Shown here: in pieces, positions 37,990 to 47,828 of the stretch
Layout: each line of letters begins with the position of its first letter
Numbering within the stretch: position 1 is the first letter of the stretch
Origin: Candidatus Gastranaerophilales bacterium
GTDB lineage: Bacteria > Cyanobacteriota > Vampirovibrionia > Gastranaerophilales > CAJFVJ01
NCBI GenBank assembly: GCA_944323485.1
Contig: CALUSR010000002.1
Location: forward strand, 1 to 64,000
Direction of reading: 5' to 3'
DNA: 64,000 nt
Position numbers and translations under genes: made by a program
The notes under the pieces: generated by a model
Told to the model about the DNA's origin: nothing
Seen by the model: only the letters and a program-made list of their open reading frames with translations
The model's database searches: none

Positions 37990-38029
37990 AAAACAAAAGG
38001 AGAAGCCCTCTTTAAAAGAGGGCTTCTCC
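37990..38029 (-). terminator. Terminator of the cysteine-rich gene
   Basis: A perfect 12-bp stem (37999-38010 with 38018-38029) with 7-base loop, then TTTTGTTTT on the minus strand, past the stop at 38056. Confidence 0.9.
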
Positions 38030-38055: not shown

Positions 38056-39366
38056 CTATCTATTTTTATATTCGCATCCATCCATTATGATTTTAACACT
38101 CTTCACACCGAAGTCATCATAGTCAGAACCATCAGACAATGTTCCTGCTGTAAGCTTAATTGTAACTTTCTTATGGTCTGAACTTACTTCACACCTGGCA
38201 GTACTAAGTGTATTAAAACCATTTCCGGCATTACTTACACCGTACTTACCGTTCCAAGTTTGACCACCACCTCCAGTATAAGCATTACAGTATCTTCCTG
38301 TTATAGCATCATTTCTGTCACAATAGTCCATACCAACAGGAACAGGTGTGCAGGAAACTATCTTATAATCATTATTATCAGTTATGCCAAAATCACTAAG
38401 GCTAAGTGTTTCTTGATAAGAACATCCGCCTGCTGTTGCTCCGCTTCCTGCGCCGCCGCAGTCACCTTTTCTGTGAGTATCTATAAAGGCCTCATCAGAT
38501 GATGTACCATAGTCATTACCTATAACAATAGCACCTGTTGTAATTGCCTTCTCACCGCAAGCTGGAGGATCAGGACATGGTTTCCCGTTATCATATGATT
38601 CATTACATGAAGAATTTGTGCAAACCTTCAATATTCTTGGAGGATCATTTGCTGTACATGGAGCATTCTGGAAAGTACAAGTTCCGCACTCGGTACAAGT
38701 ATCAGCATTTCCTGTCTGCATGCATTGACATGATGAGCAGAATCCAGGAGGACTTTGATACTTGCGTGAACACAGAGGGTCTGCATATGTATAATACAGA
38801 GTTACCTTGCTCAGAGTATCATTCACCGCTTCTTTTCTCATGCAGCGTCCGTTGCTCTTCCACTCAACACATTTTTTACATGTTTTAGGTGACAAAGTAG
38901 TACCGCATGAATAATATTCATATCTGGCACATGTTTTGCATGCAGCATATGTCTGCCAGTCATTGCCTGAACATGTCCTTGTACATTTTGTCTGCATATG
39001 AACCCTTATTGTAAATGTTTGGGCAGAATAGTTATAACCTGTCACCTCGCATTTAAAACCGTTGTTTGTTTCGCATTTTTCAGGAAGGAAATATGGACTC
39101 AACTTTCCTTCTTTGGTTGAAAGATTTCCGGCTACAGGATTATATGGTTCATATTCAACAATCTGGTCTTCATTTCTGTAGTTATTTGAATTATCTTTTA
39201 CTCTTCTCAGGTTATAAACTTCTTTATTTACATGAGAAGAAGGAATTTTTATCGTATAGTCTTTTGTTGTGGTTGTGCTACTTGATTTGCTTGATGGACA
39301 AGTATTTCCAATCAAATTTCTACAATACTTAAAGTTGTACGGCAGCCCGGGAACATTTGTCGACAA
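38056..39366 (-). CDS. C-terminal part of a split cysteine-rich surface protein
   Basis: 436 aa rich in paired cysteines (CKTCARYEYYSC, CKKCVEW, CSSCQC, CTECGTC), like a secreted disulfide-bonded protein, but there is no signal peptide or prepilin N-terminus. The usable start is a weak TTG. Coding-like sequence continues upstream of it (QADQNGTGKTDNAY; YSCACEQ) to a TGA at 39469, and beyond that as RCQVRRY. It is probably the C-terminal half of the gene at 39513-41480, split by a frameshift and the TGA. It may be expressed poorly or only by readthrough. Confidence 0.65.
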   Translation of the reverse strand: MSTNVPGLPYNFKYCRNLIGNTCPSSKSSSTTTTKDYTIKIPSSHVNKEVYNLRRVKDNSNNYRNEDQIVEYEPYNPVAGNLSTKEGKLSPYFLPEKCETNNGFKCEVTGYNYSAQTFTIRVHMQTKCTRTCSGNDWQTYAACKTCARYEYYSCGTTLSPKTCKKCVEWKSNGRCMRKEAVNDTLSKVTLYYTYADPLCSRKYQSPPGFCSSCQCMQTGNADTCTECGTCTFQNAPCTANDPPRILKVCTNSSCNESYDNGKPCPDPPACGEKAITTGAIVIGNDYGTSSDEAFIDTHRKGDCGGAGSGATAGGCSYQETLSLSDFGITDNNDYKIVSCTPVPVGMDYCDRNDAITGRYCNAYTGGGGQTWNGKYGVSNAGNGFNTLSTARCEVSSDHKKVTIKLTAGTLSDGSDYDDFGVKSVKIIMDGCEYKNR

Positions 39367-39468
39367 CTGCTCGCAGGCACATGAATATTCTACATTGCCG
39401 GTATCAAAGCCTTTATATCTGCTATAGGCATTATCAGTTTTTCCTGTTCCGTTCTGGTCAGCCTGTGA

Positions 39469-39471
39469 TCA
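39469..39471 (-). other. In-frame TGA at a cysteine position of the split gene
   Basis: The frame before it reads RCQVRRY-TGA-SQADQN. In the upstream protein the same motif is CTQVRREC, so the stop sits where a Cys codon (TGC/TGT) would be expected; one base change would explain it. Confidence 0.5.
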
Positions 39472-39510
39472 GTATCTTCTAACCTGACACCGCGCATCTG
39501 ATGTTCTGTT

Positions 39511-39529
39511 TTTTATTTTATTTTATTTT
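39511..39529. repeat. TTTTA pentanucleotide repeat
   Basis: Three copies of TTTTA plus TTTT at the 3' end of the prepilin-like gene. Removing one 5-bp unit puts the upstream gene in frame with the RCQVRRY coding sequence that follows. Repeat-length change could switch the C-terminus. Confidence 0.6.
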
Positions 39530-41480
39530 CTGAATAGCACGCACTGCATCCAAGCAGGTTTTTAGACTTATCTGACTTAAAGCCCTGATTGAATGTTGTA
39601 TCTTCGCATTCTCTGCGAACCTGCGTGCACGCCGTCATATATTTGAAGGTGTGTTTGTTTAGTTCCGTTGAATTTGAAGATGTTGCCGATTGTGCATTTT
39701 TATCCGTTTTGAGGAAATAACTATTGAACAAATTACATGGTTTGCAGCCTCTTTTACCTCCGTCGTAATCATACGGCTCACTTCCGAGGTTCATATTTCC
39801 ATCTCCGCCTTTACTTCCTCCGGGGAAGTTTGATGAGAAGTCATATTGTGTTCCTCCTACTGTCAATGGAGGGCATTCTCTTCTTGCCTGTGAGCACTGC
39901 ATTTTATATTTCGTATCTGTCCAGTCATTCGGACAATCTCCGTATGTACTTGCCGTTCTGCAGCTATAATCGGCATTCTTCGGATCTGTCATTGTGACTT
40001 TCAAGATATTCCTTGTCGGAAATTCACATTTCTGGCACGTTGTTACTCCGTCGTTTCTGTTTCCGAATACATACGGCATATCGAATTCTTTATATTGATA
40101 AAATGCGGTTCCTCCGCAGTCTCTTTCTATTTGCGCACACTGATTCAAATATCCGCATCCGAGGTTTATATAGTCCTTGTTGCTTCCTTCGTTTTTCAAG
40201 AACAATTTCAACGACGTAGGGTCTGTCATTCTCACTGATGCGCCTCTTCCGTCTTTTCTATATATTGCGCTGTCTATTGTGCTGCAGTCGTTTCCTGCCC
40301 CGATTCTCAATGAACCGCTTATTGTATTACTTGATTGATTTGCATTCCACAGCAGCATGGCGGCTGTACTCATTCCTGAGATTTCTTTTGATACTGAAAT
40401 TCCTTTGTCGTATACATGCTGGTTTATCAACACTGCTCTTTGTCTTATTGTGCAGTTGTCTGTTTTGGTTATGTGGGCTTTTCCGTAGTAACCGCCTGTA
40501 TGTTTTTCTTTTTCTCCTTCTTTTGATGTTCCTATTGTATTTAAATCTTCATTCAGAGTAATCTTTCCTACTGAGCTTCCGTCCTCATACTTAAAGGAAC
40601 CTATATTTATTGTTCCGTCCGTTACTGATGCAGGGCATAATCTCTTATATTCTATTCCCGCTCTGTATGTACTTGCCATGTTGGTTATCGGGTCTATTGA
40701 TATTACTTTATTTGTTCCTATCAAGACTTTTCTATCTTCTACATCAGGACATTCTATGCAGACCTCCGGTCTTGTTGTTTCTGTCGTTTCTCCGTCTTTT
40801 ACGCAGCGGATTCTTTCCTGATAGCACAATCTATGTGATACGTTTGCTTTTTCATTTTCTGCTTTATCTGATATATTTTCTCTGCTTATTACTGTTGTTA
40901 TCGGCGTGCATATTCCGAGCGCTCCGTCTTTATCCGGCGTTCTGCTTGTATTTGCTACTTCATGCACCCCGATTTTTCCGTTTTTATACAAATCAAGTGC
41001 TACTATATCTTCTCCGAGTTTATTATTCCCTTTTTTCGGTCCGTTTACGTCCGTTAAGATTTTTATCGGTTCATCTCCTTCGAAGTTCTGGTTTAATCCC
41101 CACCATACTTCTCCGTTTGATGCTTTTATATTCGCTTTATTATACAGGTCTGAATCTTTTGACAGACCATTTACTGCTGCATTCTCGATGTTCTCTACTG
41201 GCTCGTTCTGATTACAGTCTACGTTTACTCCCATTTTAAACAAGCCTGCGTAGTCTTTACAGAATTTCTCTCCGTTTTTAAATTCTTTGCCAGGATATTT
41301 CCTGTCATCCTCCAGCATCGTTTTTACTCCTTCGCTAAGGGTTACCGATGCTTTCTTCGCTGTATATGTATAGTCCTCTGGAATTACATTCCTCAGCACT
41401 CCTATTGTTACTGCTGCTACTACTCCCAATATCGCCACTGCCAGCAACACTTCCGCCAGCGTAAATCCAAGCTTCTTCAT
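39513..41480 (-). CDS. Type IV prepilin-like cysteine-rich protein
   Basis: 655 aa. The N-terminus is a class III prepilin signal: KKLG cleaved before FTLAEVLLAVAILGVVAAV, with Glu at position 5 of the mature form, followed by a helix. The rest is a very large Cys-rich body with repeated C-x-Q-x-R-R-x-C units (CSQARREC, CTQVRREC, CAQIERDC) and C-x2-C pairs (CQKCEF, CKPC, CSAC). Ordinary pilins are 120-200 aa, so this is a giant pseudopilin-like surface protein. A GGAGA ribosome-binding site precedes the ATG. The end runs into the TTTTA repeat and the split C-terminal part. Confidence 0.82.
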   Translation of the reverse strand: MKKLGFTLAEVLLAVAILGVVAAVTIGVLRNVIPEDYTYTAKKASVTLSEGVKTMLEDDRKYPGKEFKNGEKFCKDYAGLFKMGVNVDCNQNEPVENIENAAVNGLSKDSDLYNKANIKASNGEVWWGLNQNFEGDEPIKILTDVNGPKKGNNKLGEDIVALDLYKNGKIGVHEVANTSRTPDKDGALGICTPITTVISRENISDKAENEKANVSHRLCYQERIRCVKDGETTETTRPEVCIECPDVEDRKVLIGTNKVISIDPITNMASTYRAGIEYKRLCPASVTDGTINIGSFKYEDGSSVGKITLNEDLNTIGTSKEGEKEKHTGGYYGKAHITKTDNCTIRQRAVLINQHVYDKGISVSKEISGMSTAAMLLWNANQSSNTISGSLRIGAGNDCSTIDSAIYRKDGRGASVRMTDPTSLKLFLKNEGSNKDYINLGCGYLNQCAQIERDCGGTAFYQYKEFDMPYVFGNRNDGVTTCQKCEFPTRNILKVTMTDPKNADYSCRTASTYGDCPNDWTDTKYKMQCSQARRECPPLTVGGTQYDFSSNFPGGSKGGDGNMNLGSEPYDYDGGKRGCKPCNLFNSYFLKTDKNAQSATSSNSTELNKHTFKYMTACTQVRRECEDTTFNQGFKSDKSKNLLGCSACYSENKIK

Positions 41481-41824: not shown

Positions 41825-43198
41825 TTAGAGAGAAACATTCATATCAAGTGTTTCATCATTATACTCACGAAGGAAGTTAATCCAAGAAATATAGTAGTTG
41901 CACAATGAATCTATGTAAGCGTCCATTATTTCGCTGTAAGACTGCTGTACGAAGACGAGAGAGGTTACGTCTGATTTTTCCTGAGCATAGTTCTGAGCAG
42001 CTATTTTGAGAATTTCTTTCGAATTAGAAATCAAGTCAGAATTATAATAGTTGAGGTTCTTCTGGGCAATTATGAATTTTTCGTATGCGCTCATAAGATT
42101 TGAAGTTGCTTTATTTTTGGTTGATTCATAACGCAGCTGGGCCTGTTCAAGCTGGAGTTTAGCGTTTTTTATCTCAGGAGAGTAGTTATACAAAAGCGGT
42201 AAGTTTACGAGGTTTGCTTTTGCATAGGCACCTGAAATCATTCCGTTTCCTTCATTTTGATAAGAGGACATATATGCATAGCCTCCTCCGAGTTCAATAT
42301 CAGGGATTCGTTGTCTGATTATAATATCAAGATTTTTCTTGGCTGCTTCAATTTCATTTTTTGCTATTTTCAAATCGTATCTTTTTTCATAAGCTGATGA
42401 AGCTACATCGTCAAATTTTGGCATAACGCTCTTTGGAGATGGTGTCAGATGAGAAACAAATCCGTCGTCTTGCAAATCATCATCTTCTATATCAAAAAAA
42501 GTGTTATCTTCCTGCGAGCGATTGATATTCAACGCTTTATTGAAATCATATTTGGCGGCAAGCACAGCGGCTCTTGCGTTATTTTCCTTTAATATGAACT
42601 GATTCAGAACTATTTTTGACGGCATAATATCCATATCAGGAGTATTTGGTTCTATTTTTGTTTCAGAAATAGACACAAGTTTCAGAATAATTTCTTTTTG
42701 GTCGTGTATATTTTTCAATTTTGATTTTGCTGCCGCAAGTCTGATAAATGCCTCTCGCACGTCCATTTTCACTTCAAATTCGGCTGCTTTGATAATATCG
42801 TCGCTCAATAAAAGTTCGACCTGAGCTTTCTTTTTCCGAGGAGAACGTTTTCCAATCTCAATTAGCTGAGATATCCCTATTTGCTGAGGATTTCCCTTAT
42901 TTGTATTACCTATTCCGTAGTCCATTTCAAAAGAAGGGTTTTGAAGGCGGTTTGCTATTTTTACATTATTCTTTGCTATCTCATAGTCTTTTCTTATCTG
43001 GTTTAAATCAACATTTTTCTCAACAGCAAGCTCTATTGCCTCATGAATATTAAGTTTATTACCGCTTTGAGATGAAGAGGCAGAAAGAGGTAACTCCGGT
43101 TCTTCAAGCCGTTTTGAATCACTACTATTCTCTCCGGCATAAGATAAATTTGTTATTAAAAACGAAATCAAACAAAAAAATAAAAAGAACTTTTTCAC
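41825..43198 (-). CDS. TolC-family outer-membrane efflux protein (second copy)
   Basis: 457 aa with a signal peptide (FFLFFCLISFLITNLSYA). The OEP fold is visible as long paired helices (KLNIHEAIELAVEKNVDLNQIRKDYEIAK; AKSKLKNIHDQKEIIL; AYEKFIIAQKNLNYYN) around short membrane strands. It is the last gene of the efflux operon and is only distantly similar to the tolC-like gene at 46338. It should form the outer-membrane channel for the transporter, perhaps for another substrate. Confidence 0.88.
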   Translation of the reverse strand: MKKFFLFFCLISFLITNLSYAGENSSDSKRLEEPELPLSASSSQSGNKLNIHEAIELAVEKNVDLNQIRKDYEIAKNNVKIANRLQNPSFEMDYGIGNTNKGNPQQIGISQLIEIGKRSPRKKKAQVELLLSDDIIKAAEFEVKMDVREAFIRLAAAKSKLKNIHDQKEIILKLVSISETKIEPNTPDMDIMPSKIVLNQFILKENNARAAVLAAKYDFNKALNINRSQEDNTFFDIEDDDLQDDGFVSHLTPSPKSVMPKFDDVASSAYEKRYDLKIAKNEIEAAKKNLDIIIRQRIPDIELGGGYAYMSSYQNEGNGMISGAYAKANLVNLPLLYNYSPEIKNAKLQLEQAQLRYESTKNKATSNLMSAYEKFIIAQKNLNYYNSDLISNSKEILKIAAQNYAQEKSDVTSLVFVQQSYSEIMDAYIDSLCNYYISWINFLREYNDETLDMNVSL

Positions 43199-43263
43199 TA
43201 CAAAATATTCTCAAAAACATCTATCAAATTAATTTTATCTTAGACAAAAAAAACTATCAATAA

Positions 43264-44493
43264 TCACTCATACCTTAATGCTTCTATAGGATCAAGAAGA
43301 GAAGCTCTATAAGCCGGGTAATATCCGAAGGTTACTCCAACAAGTCCTGAAAAGCCAAAAGACAATAAAAGCGACCACCAGGCAATATAAACAGGTAAAT
43401 CAAAAAACGCTTCAACAAACTTGGCGAGAAGAATGCCCAGTACAACTCCGACTGTTCCGCCCATCAAAGAAAGCAAAAGAGATTCGAGGAGAAACTGTAT
43501 TCTTATATCGGAGGCTTTAGCACCTATTGCCATTCTAATACCGATTTCTTTCGTTCTTTCAGTGACAGATACAAGCATAATGTTCATAATCCCTATACCT
43601 CCTACCAAAAGAGAAACTGAAGCAATAGAACCGAGCAAAATAGCCATAATCTTTGCTGATTCTTTTGCCGTTTCCATCATCTGGGTAAGGTTTCTTATAG
43701 TGAAATCATCTTCCTGCTTGCTTCCAAGGCGATGACGTTCTCTTAAGAGCTCTTTTATTTCATCCTGCGCAGTATAGACTGCATTTTCATCAACGGCTTT
43801 TACCATAATATGTCTTACCATACCCGGAAAATCAACACCTATCAACTTTTTTTGCGCTGTAGTTATTGGAATCATAATCGTATCATCCTGATCTTGCCCC
43901 ATTCCTGATTGTCCTTTTGATTCAAGAACGCCTACAACAGTGAAAGGCATTCCCTCTATTCTCACGGTTTTTCCTACGGGATCCAAATCCCCGAAAAGAT
44001 TTTCTGCGACAGTCTGTCCCAAAAGACATACCTTTGTTGAGTTGCTCACATCTTCATCAGAAAAAGAACGTCCGTATTCAACTCCCCAATCTCTTACAAT
44101 CATTACATTTGGAGTTGTTCCCTGAATTCCTGTCGACCAGTTTTGATTGCCGAAGACAACCTGTTTTGTACCGGATAAATACGGAGCAACAGCAAGAACT
44201 GAAGGACATTTTTTTTGAATATCAAGTGCATCAGAATAAGTAAGCGTCTGTTTGCTGCCTGCGCCCATTCTTATTCCTCCTGATGTTGTTGACCCGGATA
44301 CGACCATCAAAAGATTACTGCCCATTTTTGCCATATTTTCAGCCATTGAACGCTGAGCACCCATACCTATTGCAAGCATAATAATAACCGAGCTTACTCC
44401 GATGATTATGCCCAAACTTGTCAAAATTGAGCGCATTTTATTTATTCTGATTGTTCTTATGGCTATTCTCAAAGTAGATTCCAAGTCAATCAC
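43264..44493 (-). CDS. MacB-like ABC transporter permease
   Basis: 409 aa with the MacB/FtsX layout: first membrane helix (SILTSLGIIIGVSSVIIMLAIGMGA), a large periplasmic domain (about 50-280, GSTTSGGIRMGAGSKQTLTYSDAL), and three C-terminal helices with ERTKEIGIRMAIGAKASDIRIQFLLESLLLSLMGG as the FtsX motif. It works with the ATPase at 44490, whose stop it overlaps by four bases, and the adaptor at 45184. Unlike E. coli MacB the ATPase is a separate protein. Confidence 0.92.
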   Translation of the reverse strand: MIDLESTLRIAIRTIRINKMRSILTSLGIIIGVSSVIIMLAIGMGAQRSMAENMAKMGSNLLMVVSGSTTSGGIRMGAGSKQTLTYSDALDIQKKCPSVLAVAPYLSGTKQVVFGNQNWSTGIQGTTPNVMIVRDWGVEYGRSFSDEDVSNSTKVCLLGQTVAENLFGDLDPVGKTVRIEGMPFTVVGVLESKGQSGMGQDQDDTIMIPITTAQKKLIGVDFPGMVRHIMVKAVDENAVYTAQDEIKELLRERHRLGSKQEDDFTIRNLTQMMETAKESAKIMAILLGSIASVSLLVGGIGIMNIMLVSVTERTKEIGIRMAIGAKASDIRIQFLLESLLLSLMGGTVGVVLGILLAKFVEAFFDLPVYIAWWSLLLSFGFSGLVGVTFGYYPAYRASLLDPIEALRYE

Positions 44494-45182
44494 TTTTTAT
44501 TTACCTCATCTTTTATAATATGGCCGTCTCTAAAGTGAACAACTCTTTTTGCATAGTCTGCAATATCCTGTTCATGGGTTACCAGCATAATTGTTTTATG
44601 CTGTTCTTCATTCAATCTGACAAAAAAGTCCATAACTTCATAACTTGTTTTGGTATCGAGATTTCCGGTCGGTTCATCAGCGAGAATGACAGGAGCATCG
44701 TTCACAATTGCTCTTGCTATTGCGACTCTTTGCTGCTGTCCGCCTGAGAGCTGGTTGGGAAGGTTATACATTTTTTTCTCGAGTCCGACTATTTTTAGAG
44801 CTTCTTTTGCTCTTTCTATACGTTCTTTGGGTTCAATGCCTTTGTATATCATCGGCATCTCAACATTTTCAAGAGCCGATGTTCTTGAAATCAGGTTAAA
44901 CCCCTGGAATACAAAACCTAATTTCAAATTTCTGATATCTGCAAGTTTATCTTTTGATAATTTTGAAACATCAATCCCATCAAGGAAATACTGCCCTGAA
45001 GTCGGAACATCAAGACAGCCGATTAAATTCATAAAAGTAGATTTACCAGAGCCTGATGAGCCCATAATTGCCACAAATTCACCGTATTCAACACTCAGAC
45101 TTACTCCGTTAAGAGCATAAAACAGAGAATCTCCGGTATTATAAGTTTTGACAATATTTTCGGTTTTTATCAGCGAAGTCAT
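44490..45182 (-). CDS. MacB/LolD-type ABC ATPase
   Basis: 230 aa. Walker [11 protein letters not shown]-loop FVFQGFNL, signature [15 protein letters not shown], Walker [14 protein letters not shown]-loop MLVTHE. This is the typical MacB/LolD ATPase set. It sits one base from the adaptor stop and overlaps the permease start by four bases, a tightly coupled operon. Confidence 0.95.
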
Positions 45183-45183
45183 A

Positions 45184-46341
45184 TTAGAACGGTCTCATAC
45201 GTCTTTGAGCTGCAGCTTTTTCTTTGCTTGTAGAAGAAATAATCACTCTATCACCTTCTTTAAGTGCATCAGAGGTTATTTCAGTGTAATCTTCATCGCT
45301 TGCTCCTATTTGGACTGTAACCCGCTTGGGTTTATTTTTCTCGAGTATCCAGACACCATACTCCTGATATTTTTTCTTAGTACCGTCTTTTGATGTCTGT
45401 GGGCTGAATTTTAGAGCTCTGTTATCAACACAAAGAACATTTTCCTTTTTATTTGTAATAATAGAAACATTAGCAGTCATACCCGGTATCAGCTTCAAGT
45501 CTTTATTATCAATTATAATAACGACATTGTAGGTAACAACGTTCTGAACGGTTGTCGGAGAAATTCTGACCTGAGAAACTTTTCCTGTAAAAGTTTCATC
45601 AGGATAACCGTCAATGGTATATTCAACGTCCTGACCGACTTTGACACGTCCTATATCCGCTTCTACAACACTCGTATCTATTTGCATTTTTGTCAAATCT
45701 TGAGCGACAGAGAACAATGTAGGAGTTTGAAAGCTGGCAGCAACGGTTTGTCCGACATCAACCGAACGAGAAACTACTATGCCGTCAACAGGGGAGATTA
45801 TTCTTGTATATCTCAGGTTCGTAAGATTATTATCAAGAGTAGCTTTTGCCTGTTCAATTTGAGCTTTCGCTGCATTTAACGAAGCGACATCCGCCTTATA
45901 AGTACTCTCTGCCAAATCAAGTTCACTTTTGGCAACAAATTTTCTTTCATAAAGAGCTTTATATCTGTTATAAGTTTTCAGATCATTTTCCATAACGCTT
46001 TTAACTCTCTCATAGTTTGCCTGAGCATTATTCAAACTGGCACGTGATTCGTTAACCCTGGCTTCAAAAAGAGCAGGGTCTATCTGGGCCAGCAGCTGAC
46101 CTTTTTTTACTTCCGAGTTATAGTCAACATAAAGTTCTTTAATTGTTCCAGAAACCTGAGAACCAATGCTGACAGTAATAACAGGATTAACAGTTCCAGA
46201 GGCAAACACGCTTTGAACTATTGTACGTTTTTTCAGAGCTCTTGTTTTATACTGTTCTTTGTTTGCATTCATATTTATAAATGAAAACAAAGCAATTATT
46301 ACCAAAATTACACCAAGGATAATGAGTCCTTTTTTCTTCAT
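45184..46341 (-). CDS. MacA-like periplasmic adaptor (HlyD family)
   Basis: 385 aa with an N-terminal membrane helix (GLIILGVILVIIALFSFINM), a lipoyl half-motif (GTVNPVITVSIGSQVSGTIKELYVD), a long hairpin coiled coil (ARVNESRASLNNAQANYERVKS... AAKAQIEQAKATL), the second lipoyl half (RIISPVDGIVVSRSV), then beta-barrel and membrane-proximal domains. It joins the inner-membrane pump to the TolC channel. It starts four bases inside the tolC-like gene end, so the two are translationally linked. Confidence 0.93.
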   Translation of the reverse strand: MKKKGLIILGVILVIIALFSFINMNANKEQYKTRALKKRTIVQSVFASGTVNPVITVSIGSQVSGTIKELYVDYNSEVKKGQLLAQIDPALFEARVNESRASLNNAQANYERVKSVMENDLKTYNRYKALYERKFVAKSELDLAESTYKADVASLNAAKAQIEQAKATLDNNLTNLRYTRIISPVDGIVVSRSVDVGQTVAASFQTPTLFSVAQDLTKMQIDTSVVEADIGRVKVGQDVEYTIDGYPDETFTGKVSQVRISPTTVQNVVTYNVVIIIDNKDLKLIPGMTANVSIITNKKENVLCVDNRALKFSPQTSKDGTKKKYQEYGVWILEKNKPKRVTVQIGASDEDYTEITSDALKEGDRVIISSTSKEKAAAQRRMRPF

Positions 46342-47828
46342 TTTACCCCCATAGAATATTCAAGATAAATTCTTGCCATGTTGTAATCATAAACAGCCTG
46401 AGCATACGCAAGCTGTGCGTTGTTATAATCAGTTTGAGCATCCTGCAGCTCGATATAATTTCCAAGACCGACTTCATATCTGCCATCAGCGAGTTCAAAA
46501 TTCTGGAATGCCTGCTTTACTGTTGCATCAAGAAGAGGAATTCTTCTTTCTATTTCTTTCAGGTTTGTATGCGCCTTTTGAACATCAAAGAAAATATTTT
46601 GTTTTTGAAGATTAATATTAGCAAGAGCAGTACTGAGATTAACTTTGCTCTCATCAATTTTATATTTTGTCAACATAGGGTTAACTGTAGGAATATTCAA
46701 AGACGCCCCGAGGCGAAGAGTGTGATGAACAGGGAAGTTATCTCCCATAAACCCTGTTGATAAACTTGCATTCAAATCAGGAAAATACTCTTTTTTTGCC
46801 AATTTCAAGGATTCTTTTGCGGATTTTTCTTTTGCAAGAAGAGCTTTCAAATCGGGCCTGTTCTCGTATGCCGTTTTTATTGCTTCGTCCATTTCAATAT
46901 TATATGGAGTAAACTTAAAGTTCTCAAGCATATTATGTTTTACAAGACCTGATTTCAAAACAACTGACGATGTTCCTGCGTCTGTTCCAGTTTGAGCGCT
47001 GTCGTCAATATTTTTAGAAATATGATTTTTCTCCGGTAAAACATACTTTTGATAGACCTCTTCCGCCTCTTTTTCTGACAATCCCTTTGGCATATTGAAA
47101 TCTTCCGTATCAGAAACAGAATATTTTGCACTGTCAACAAGATACATGGAGTTATTTAGAGCAATAATTGCGTTTCTGTAGTTCGTCATAGCCTGAACAT
47201 ATTCTATTTTGGCGTTGTTATAGGTAACTTCAGCATTTGTCACATCTATATAAGATTTCATGCCGACATCGTAGAAACCTTTTGCCATTTCATAATGTCT
47301 TTCTGCAAGCTGGGCATTTCTCAGTTTTATATCCTGTTCAACTTTTGCAAATAAAACTCCGTAGTAAGCATTTTTTACATTATATATTGTTTGAAGAATA
47401 ACATTTTCAAGCCCGAAGTCAGCTGATTTCAGGTTGAATTTCTGTACTTTTATTTTTGAAGAAGTCTTTCCGAAGTTATATATAAGCTGATTTACGGATA
47501 AGTTAGCAAGTACAAGCTCATCTATCAGACTGTTTTTGGTATGCGAATACCCGTTGCTAAGCCCGAGAGTCGGAGAATAATCGGATTTTGCCTGACCGAG
47601 TCTTGCCTTATAGAGGAGAATTTCGTTCTCAGAGATTTCTATCTGCGGGCTGTTTCGCAGGGCTATTTTTATGCAATCATCAAGATTTAAAATAACATCT
47701 TTGCTGACTTTTGCTTCGACCGGTTTATTCTCGATTGTTTCTTCATCTATAGCAAAAACAGCGTTTTGAGCAAAAAACAGCAAACAAATACAGAATACCG
47801 AATTAAGAACTTTTTTTTGGAAAGACAT
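46338..47828 (-). CDS. TolC-family outer-membrane efflux protein
   Basis: 496 aa with a signal peptide (VFCICLLFFAQNAVFA). First gene of the operon. Two OEP repeats: LDDCIKIALRNSPQIEISENEILLYKARLGQ and its later match starting DEAIKTAYENRPDLKALLAKEKS, each with long helices (RYEVGLGNYIELQDAQTDYNNAQ is typical). It should trimerise into the outer-membrane tunnel fed by the MacA-like adaptor. It differs clearly from the operon's second TolC gene. Confidence 0.92.
   Translation of the reverse strand: MSFQKKVLNSVFCICLLFFAQNAVFAIDEETIENKPVEAKVSKDVILNLDDCIKIALRNSPQIEISENEILLYKARLGQAKSDYSPTLGLSNGYSHTKNSLIDELVLANLSVNQLIYNFGKTSSKIKVQKFNLKSADFGLENVILQTIYNVKNAYYGVLFAKVEQDIKLRNAQLAERHYEMAKGFYDVGMKSYIDVTNAEVTYNNAKIEYVQAMTNYRNAIIALNNSMYLVDSAKYSVSDTEDFNMPKGLSEKEAEEVYQKYVLPEKNHISKNIDDSAQTGTDAGTSSVVLKSGLVKHNMLENFKFTPYNIEMDEAIKTAYENRPDLKALLAKEKSAKESLKLAKKEYFPDLNASLSTGFMGDNFPVHHTLRLGASLNIPTVNPMLTKYKIDESKVNLSTALANINLQKQNIFFDVQKAHTNLKEIERRIPLLDATVKQAFQNFELADGRYEVGLGNYIELQDAQTDYNNAQLAYAQAVYDYNMARIYLEYSMGVK

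Follow-up and report, generated by a model that had tools for sequence, protein, structure and literature searches.

On the minus strand of the window (the whole 64-kb stretch of DNA analysed here), a long prepilin-like frame is followed by a second long open frame (Table 1), the two frames being offset by 5 bp, and the question is whether these are two genes, the halves of one broken gene, or one gene that can at times be read through. The preliminary description of this locus proposed that a single ancestral gene, more than 1,100 codons long, has been split by a pentanucleotide repeat and a TGA codon, or else that the protein is a phase-variable surface protein. The repeat, the TGA and both frames are where it had placed them. 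On the plus strand the repeat reads (TTTTA)3 at 39511–39525, followed by TTTT to 39529, giving AAAAT x3 on the coding strand, and the TAA that ends the 655-codon head falls inside it. It is the sole pentanucleotide found three times in tandem within the window, where about 0.1 such tracts are expected under a first-order Markov model.

Table 1. Parts of the split gene and of its surroundings (window positions), tracts identical to the paralog, and the three loci of the family with their neighbours.
Feature	Position or neighbour	Strand	Remarks
Head, 655-codon prepilin-like ORF	39513..41480	-	ATG at 41480, TAA at 39515-39513; type IV prepilin N-terminus and cysteine-rich body
Lesion 1, AAAAT x3 tract	39511..39529	-	Two units in paralog and sister-species ortholog; frame shifted
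Lesion 2, in-frame TGA at cysteine position	39469..39471	-	TGC in paralog and ortholog
Tail, 470-codon open frame	38056..39468	-	Cysteine-rich middle region and C-terminal module; no credible start of its own
Intrinsic-terminator-like hairpin, 14 pairs, T-rich tail	37999..38029	-	Directly after the tail frame
488-bp tract identical in window copy and paralog	38951..39438	-	12 differences from ortholog; gene-conversion tract
374-bp tract identical to paralog	41097..41470	-	Part of homogenised 5' end with first codons and upstream ribosome-binding site
Locus 1 (window copy)	Beside TolC-like gene		Neighbour named by sequence inspection
Locus 2 (paralog)	Beside serine-acetyltransferase-like gene		Neighbour named by sequence inspection
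Locus 3	Beside GroEL-like gene		Neighbour named by sequence inspection

Two relatives show what the unbroken gene looks like. A paralog in the same genome (contig C2, 351166–354618) is a single ORF of 1,151 codons spanning both halves; the head is 84% identical to its residues 1–655, and head and tail together align with it over its length. The second is a syntenic ortholog in the sister genome of Candidatus Adamsella avium (G001), on contig CAJFVJ010000003.1 (C3 of that genome), which is placed in the Cyanobacteriota/Melainabacteria group. On this contig the ortholog is assembled from about residue 569 on, and neither site interrupts its frame. Synteny is seen on either side: the second gene half with the downstream flank corresponds to the start of G001 C3 (93%), and the sequence upstream to the end of G001 C2 (88%). 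Aligned with the window copy, both relatives show two AAAAT units, exactly one fewer, and TGC in place of TGA, with which they read ENKIKNRTSDARCQVRRYCSQADQN in one frame. A 144-bp probe over the lesion site, searched against 20 relatives, gave convincing matches only at the window copy, the paralog and the sister-species ortholog; in two other genomes there were matches of 21–28 bp to the A/T-rich tract. The intact homologs, one a paralog and one in a syntenic position, thus read through both disabling sites, as for a pseudogene, and the proposal of a single ancestral gene exceeding 1,100 codons is borne out. Had the two frames always been separate genes, relatives would be expected to keep both, with an independent start for the second. 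This is not the pattern here, since no split relative was found and the tail frame offers, near its beginning, no start-like codon other than TTG at 39366 and 39315, neither with a clear Shine-Dalgarno sequence.

The TGA had been described as falling where a repeated CxQxRRxC motif has its cysteine. A cysteine is indeed lost there, conserved in both intact relatives, but the motif at this point is CQxRRxC, one residue shorter than the CxQxxRxC present three times upstream. At the repeat site the paralog (ATA AAA AAC) contains an in-frame A-AAA-AAC heptamer, the shape of a classic -1 slippery sequence, which is probably a matter of chance in A-rich DNA.

The reading favoured here, with a probability of roughly 0.78, is that a giant prepilin-like gene of a Candidatus Adamsella species, intact until very recently, was split by two small lesions. 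The first would have arisen by tandem duplication of the 5-bp AAAAT unit, shifting the frame into the TAA, and the second by a C-to-A change producing a TGA at the conserved cysteine. Exactly two lesions were found in the more than 1,100 codons of the window gene as assembled, in which the start, the ribosome-binding site and the terminator are all still in place; the sister-species ortholog and the paralog, too, have a hairpin and T-rich tail at their 3' side. The most that the window copy would now yield is a prepilin cut short at 655 residues, lacking the middle region and the C-terminal module, and this copy is presumably non-functional other than as a recombination partner.

The age of the break was judged from the tail, which is 98% identical to the sister-species ortholog. 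The two differ by nine nonsynonymous and 27 synonymous changes (dN/dS 0.096); for the 108 codons just upstream dN/dS is 0.099, from few changes (four nonsynonymous, 10 synonymous). Neutral evolution of the tail over the whole time since the two species parted would predict about 52 nonsynonymous differences rather than the nine seen, and the neutral period can occupy at most about 15% of the branch (a rough 95% limit). The relaxed selection in the tail that would go with an old break is not found, dN/dS being equal to that upstream. With a tail dN/dS of about 0.1 against the sister species, the break would be very recent, unless it is an artefact of assembly; “recent” here refers to one comparison, between two genomes of the genus.

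The window copy belongs to a small family. Both Adamsella genomes have three giant cysteine-rich prepilin-like loci (Table 1), two of the three genes being of about 1,150 codons; synteny of the paralog locus with the sister species was confirmed on both sides. BLASTP self-comparison of the paralog reported no internal repeats, and only the short cysteine motif recurs. The tail of the window copy is present in two of 97 genomes, both of this genus, and a third genome of the family (82% complete) had no match. All six ends of the three G001 contigs lie inside the three giant prepilin genes, so closing this chromosome is probably possible by resolving three repeats, and in the window's genome the GroEL-linked third copy is split between the ends of contigs C3 and C1. 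Adamsella genome assemblies are broken by these genes at exactly these places.

This bears on a competing explanation, in which the gene is in truth unbroken and the lesions were produced by a strain mixture or by poor resolution of near-identical copies. They could be assembly or consensus errors since both adjoin the 488-bp exact repeat common to two copies on one contig, and breaks inside this family occur in three of three sister-genome contigs and in two contigs of the window's genome. Purifying selection on the tail up to the present also fits; a tail without relaxed selection is the pattern of an intact gene as well. However, the paralog and the sister species are free of both lesions, which therefore cannot be simple copies from a known relative; the gain of a 5-bp unit plus a separate transversion would be an unusual pair of errors, and both halves and the flanks of the split gene are otherwise clean. 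An artefact is worth weighing but unlikely.

The identical tracts also suggest how the family evolves. Over about the first 375 bp the window copy and the paralog differ by one base, and the identity continues upstream for some 18 bp, covering the ribosome-binding site, before it stops. The same holds for the two G001 heads, which are nearly identical and have in common differences from the window's genome. With 5' ends near-identical within each genome and differing between genomes, concerted evolution is indicated. The 488-bp run is not expected from the overall divergence of the two copies either: none of 20,000 permutations of the variable sites gave one as long. Beyond this common tract the tails of the window copy and the paralog diverge. 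At the position of the tract, another type of block is found in the G001 gene of the paralog's locus (about 45% identity overall), whose middle block and tail both differ (37% and 45% identity). On the most direct reading the window locus was the donor in a conversion of the paralog's locus, with a replacement in G001 as an alternative. The exactness of the tract could come in part from an assembler merging near-identical copies, but merging cannot account for the difference in block type at the paralog's locus. Identical tracts set against divergent orthologs are the pattern of recombination between gene copies, as in pilE/pilS-type systems.

The tail of the third locus is 99% identical between the two species, but those found at the paralog's locus are strongly different in the two. 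A loosely similar module with a C...AG...DG...(Y/F)D(D/G)(W/F) pattern closes each of the four tails; the truncated window product would lack it. On the favoured reading the family evolves by recombination between copies, with gene conversion homogenising the 5' ends, ribosome-binding site included, as well as internal blocks, and with locus-specific, replaceable C-terminal tails. A broader and more tentative idea, though an improbable one, is that the three giant prepilin-like genes make up a diversity system particular to this genus of cyanobacteria-related gut bacteria, in which recombination, driven by homogenised 5' ends and internal blocks, would reshuffle the cysteine-rich bodies and tails while copies cycle between broken and intact states and restore one another.

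The window copy might also be kept as a silent donor, a conversion reservoir for the intact copy as pilS is for pilE. Gene conversion between window copy and paralog since the species split, together with the different middle block and tail in the sister species' gene at the paralog's locus, would agree with this, and it could hold together with a recent split. Against it, the copy retains a start, a ribosome-binding site and a terminator of its own, purifying selection acted on it as a coding gene up to a recent time, and homogenisation occurs also without a dedicated system. A whole-genome search showed only the three loci, with no silent partial cassettes devoid of start and promoter. A reservoir role is considered quite unlikely.

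The second proposal of the preliminary description, phase variation, would have slippage in the pentanucleotide tract switch the tail on and off. The tract is unique of its kind in the window and has one unit more than in relatives, and such tracts switch surface genes elsewhere, as in opa (PMC7157529). However, it alone cannot switch the full protein, because in the two-unit frame translation meets the TGA (39471–39469) about 15 codons later, so that neither repeat state gives a full-length product. Three units also make a short tract, and relatives have only two; in meningococcal opa, tracts of five or fewer units mutate at 0.007 per month of carriage versus 0.09 for those of 6–8 units, a rate about 13-fold lower (PMC7157529). 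The proposal is therefore not supported and is regarded as very improbable. Decoding of the TGA, as selenocysteine at a cysteine position or through some other reassignment, is scarcely credible even though it replaces a conserved cysteine codon, since no SelA match was found in the window's genome (99.5% complete), the upstream frameshift would persist, and relatives use TGC.

To return to the split prepilin-like gene, its likely function is suggested mainly by the N-terminus. The head ORF starts MKKLGFTLAEVLLAVAILGVVAAVTIGVL, a prepilin signal, and scores above the curated cut-offs for PF07963 (22.0 bits against 21.2) and TIGR02532 (21.5 bits against 16.3). After the first ~25 residues no Pfam or NCBIfam domain exceeded its cut-off; a PDB sequence search gave only weak matches, to the N-terminal helix of geopilin (first 64 residues), and no relatives were found on viral contigs. 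Predicted structures were too poor for use, with a mean pLDDT of 34 for the head and 31 for the second half of the ortholog. Residues 1 to ~170 place the protein in a prepilin family matched in 363 of the 383 genomes of the order, at roughly 26–52% identity and mostly in frames of 200–270 aa. These N-terminal residues are thus ordinary for the order, and the giant form is seen only in this genus. Judging from the N-terminus and from the family, the intact protein would be exported and processed like a type IV prepilin, with insertion in the membrane, the action of a prepilin peptidase and display through a pilus-like machine; its outer part would be large and rich in disulphides. Upstream of the gene (window 41825–47828) is an export cluster that is ABC-type by look, judged from sequences only, with two TolC-like proteins, a MacB-like permease, an ATPase and a membrane-fusion protein.

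The locus offers a clean case of a pilin-like gene apparently caught just after breakage, with the intact version kept in two relatives. Nothing on pilins of Adamsella was found in the literature searched, and giant cysteine-rich prepilin-like proteins encoded at three loci that recombine with one another, in bacteria of the gut that are uncultured, are apparently undescribed as a family.

Among known systems, the Adamsella proteins share with type IV prepilins and pseudopilins carrying a class III signal (PF07963, TIGR02532) the N-terminal GFTLAEVLLAVAILGVVAAVTIG signal and hydrophobic helix, but differ in their size (~1,150 residues) and cysteine content (58 in the intact paralog); the order-wide prepilins are without the cysteine-rich body and tail. 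In Neisseria the pilin gene pilE recombines with other copies in the genome, the pilS loci. The Adamsella genes are similar in that a pilin-like gene recombines with other genomic copies, and different in that no 5'-truncated silent cassettes were found and copies with an assembled 5' end have their own start. A further likeness is to Rhs core/tip genes (PMC2935791), in which a conserved 5' part is likewise joined to C-terminal tails that vary from locus to locus and undergo replacement between related genomes. No sequence relation is expected, and the cargo of the Adamsella genes is presumably a surface domain.
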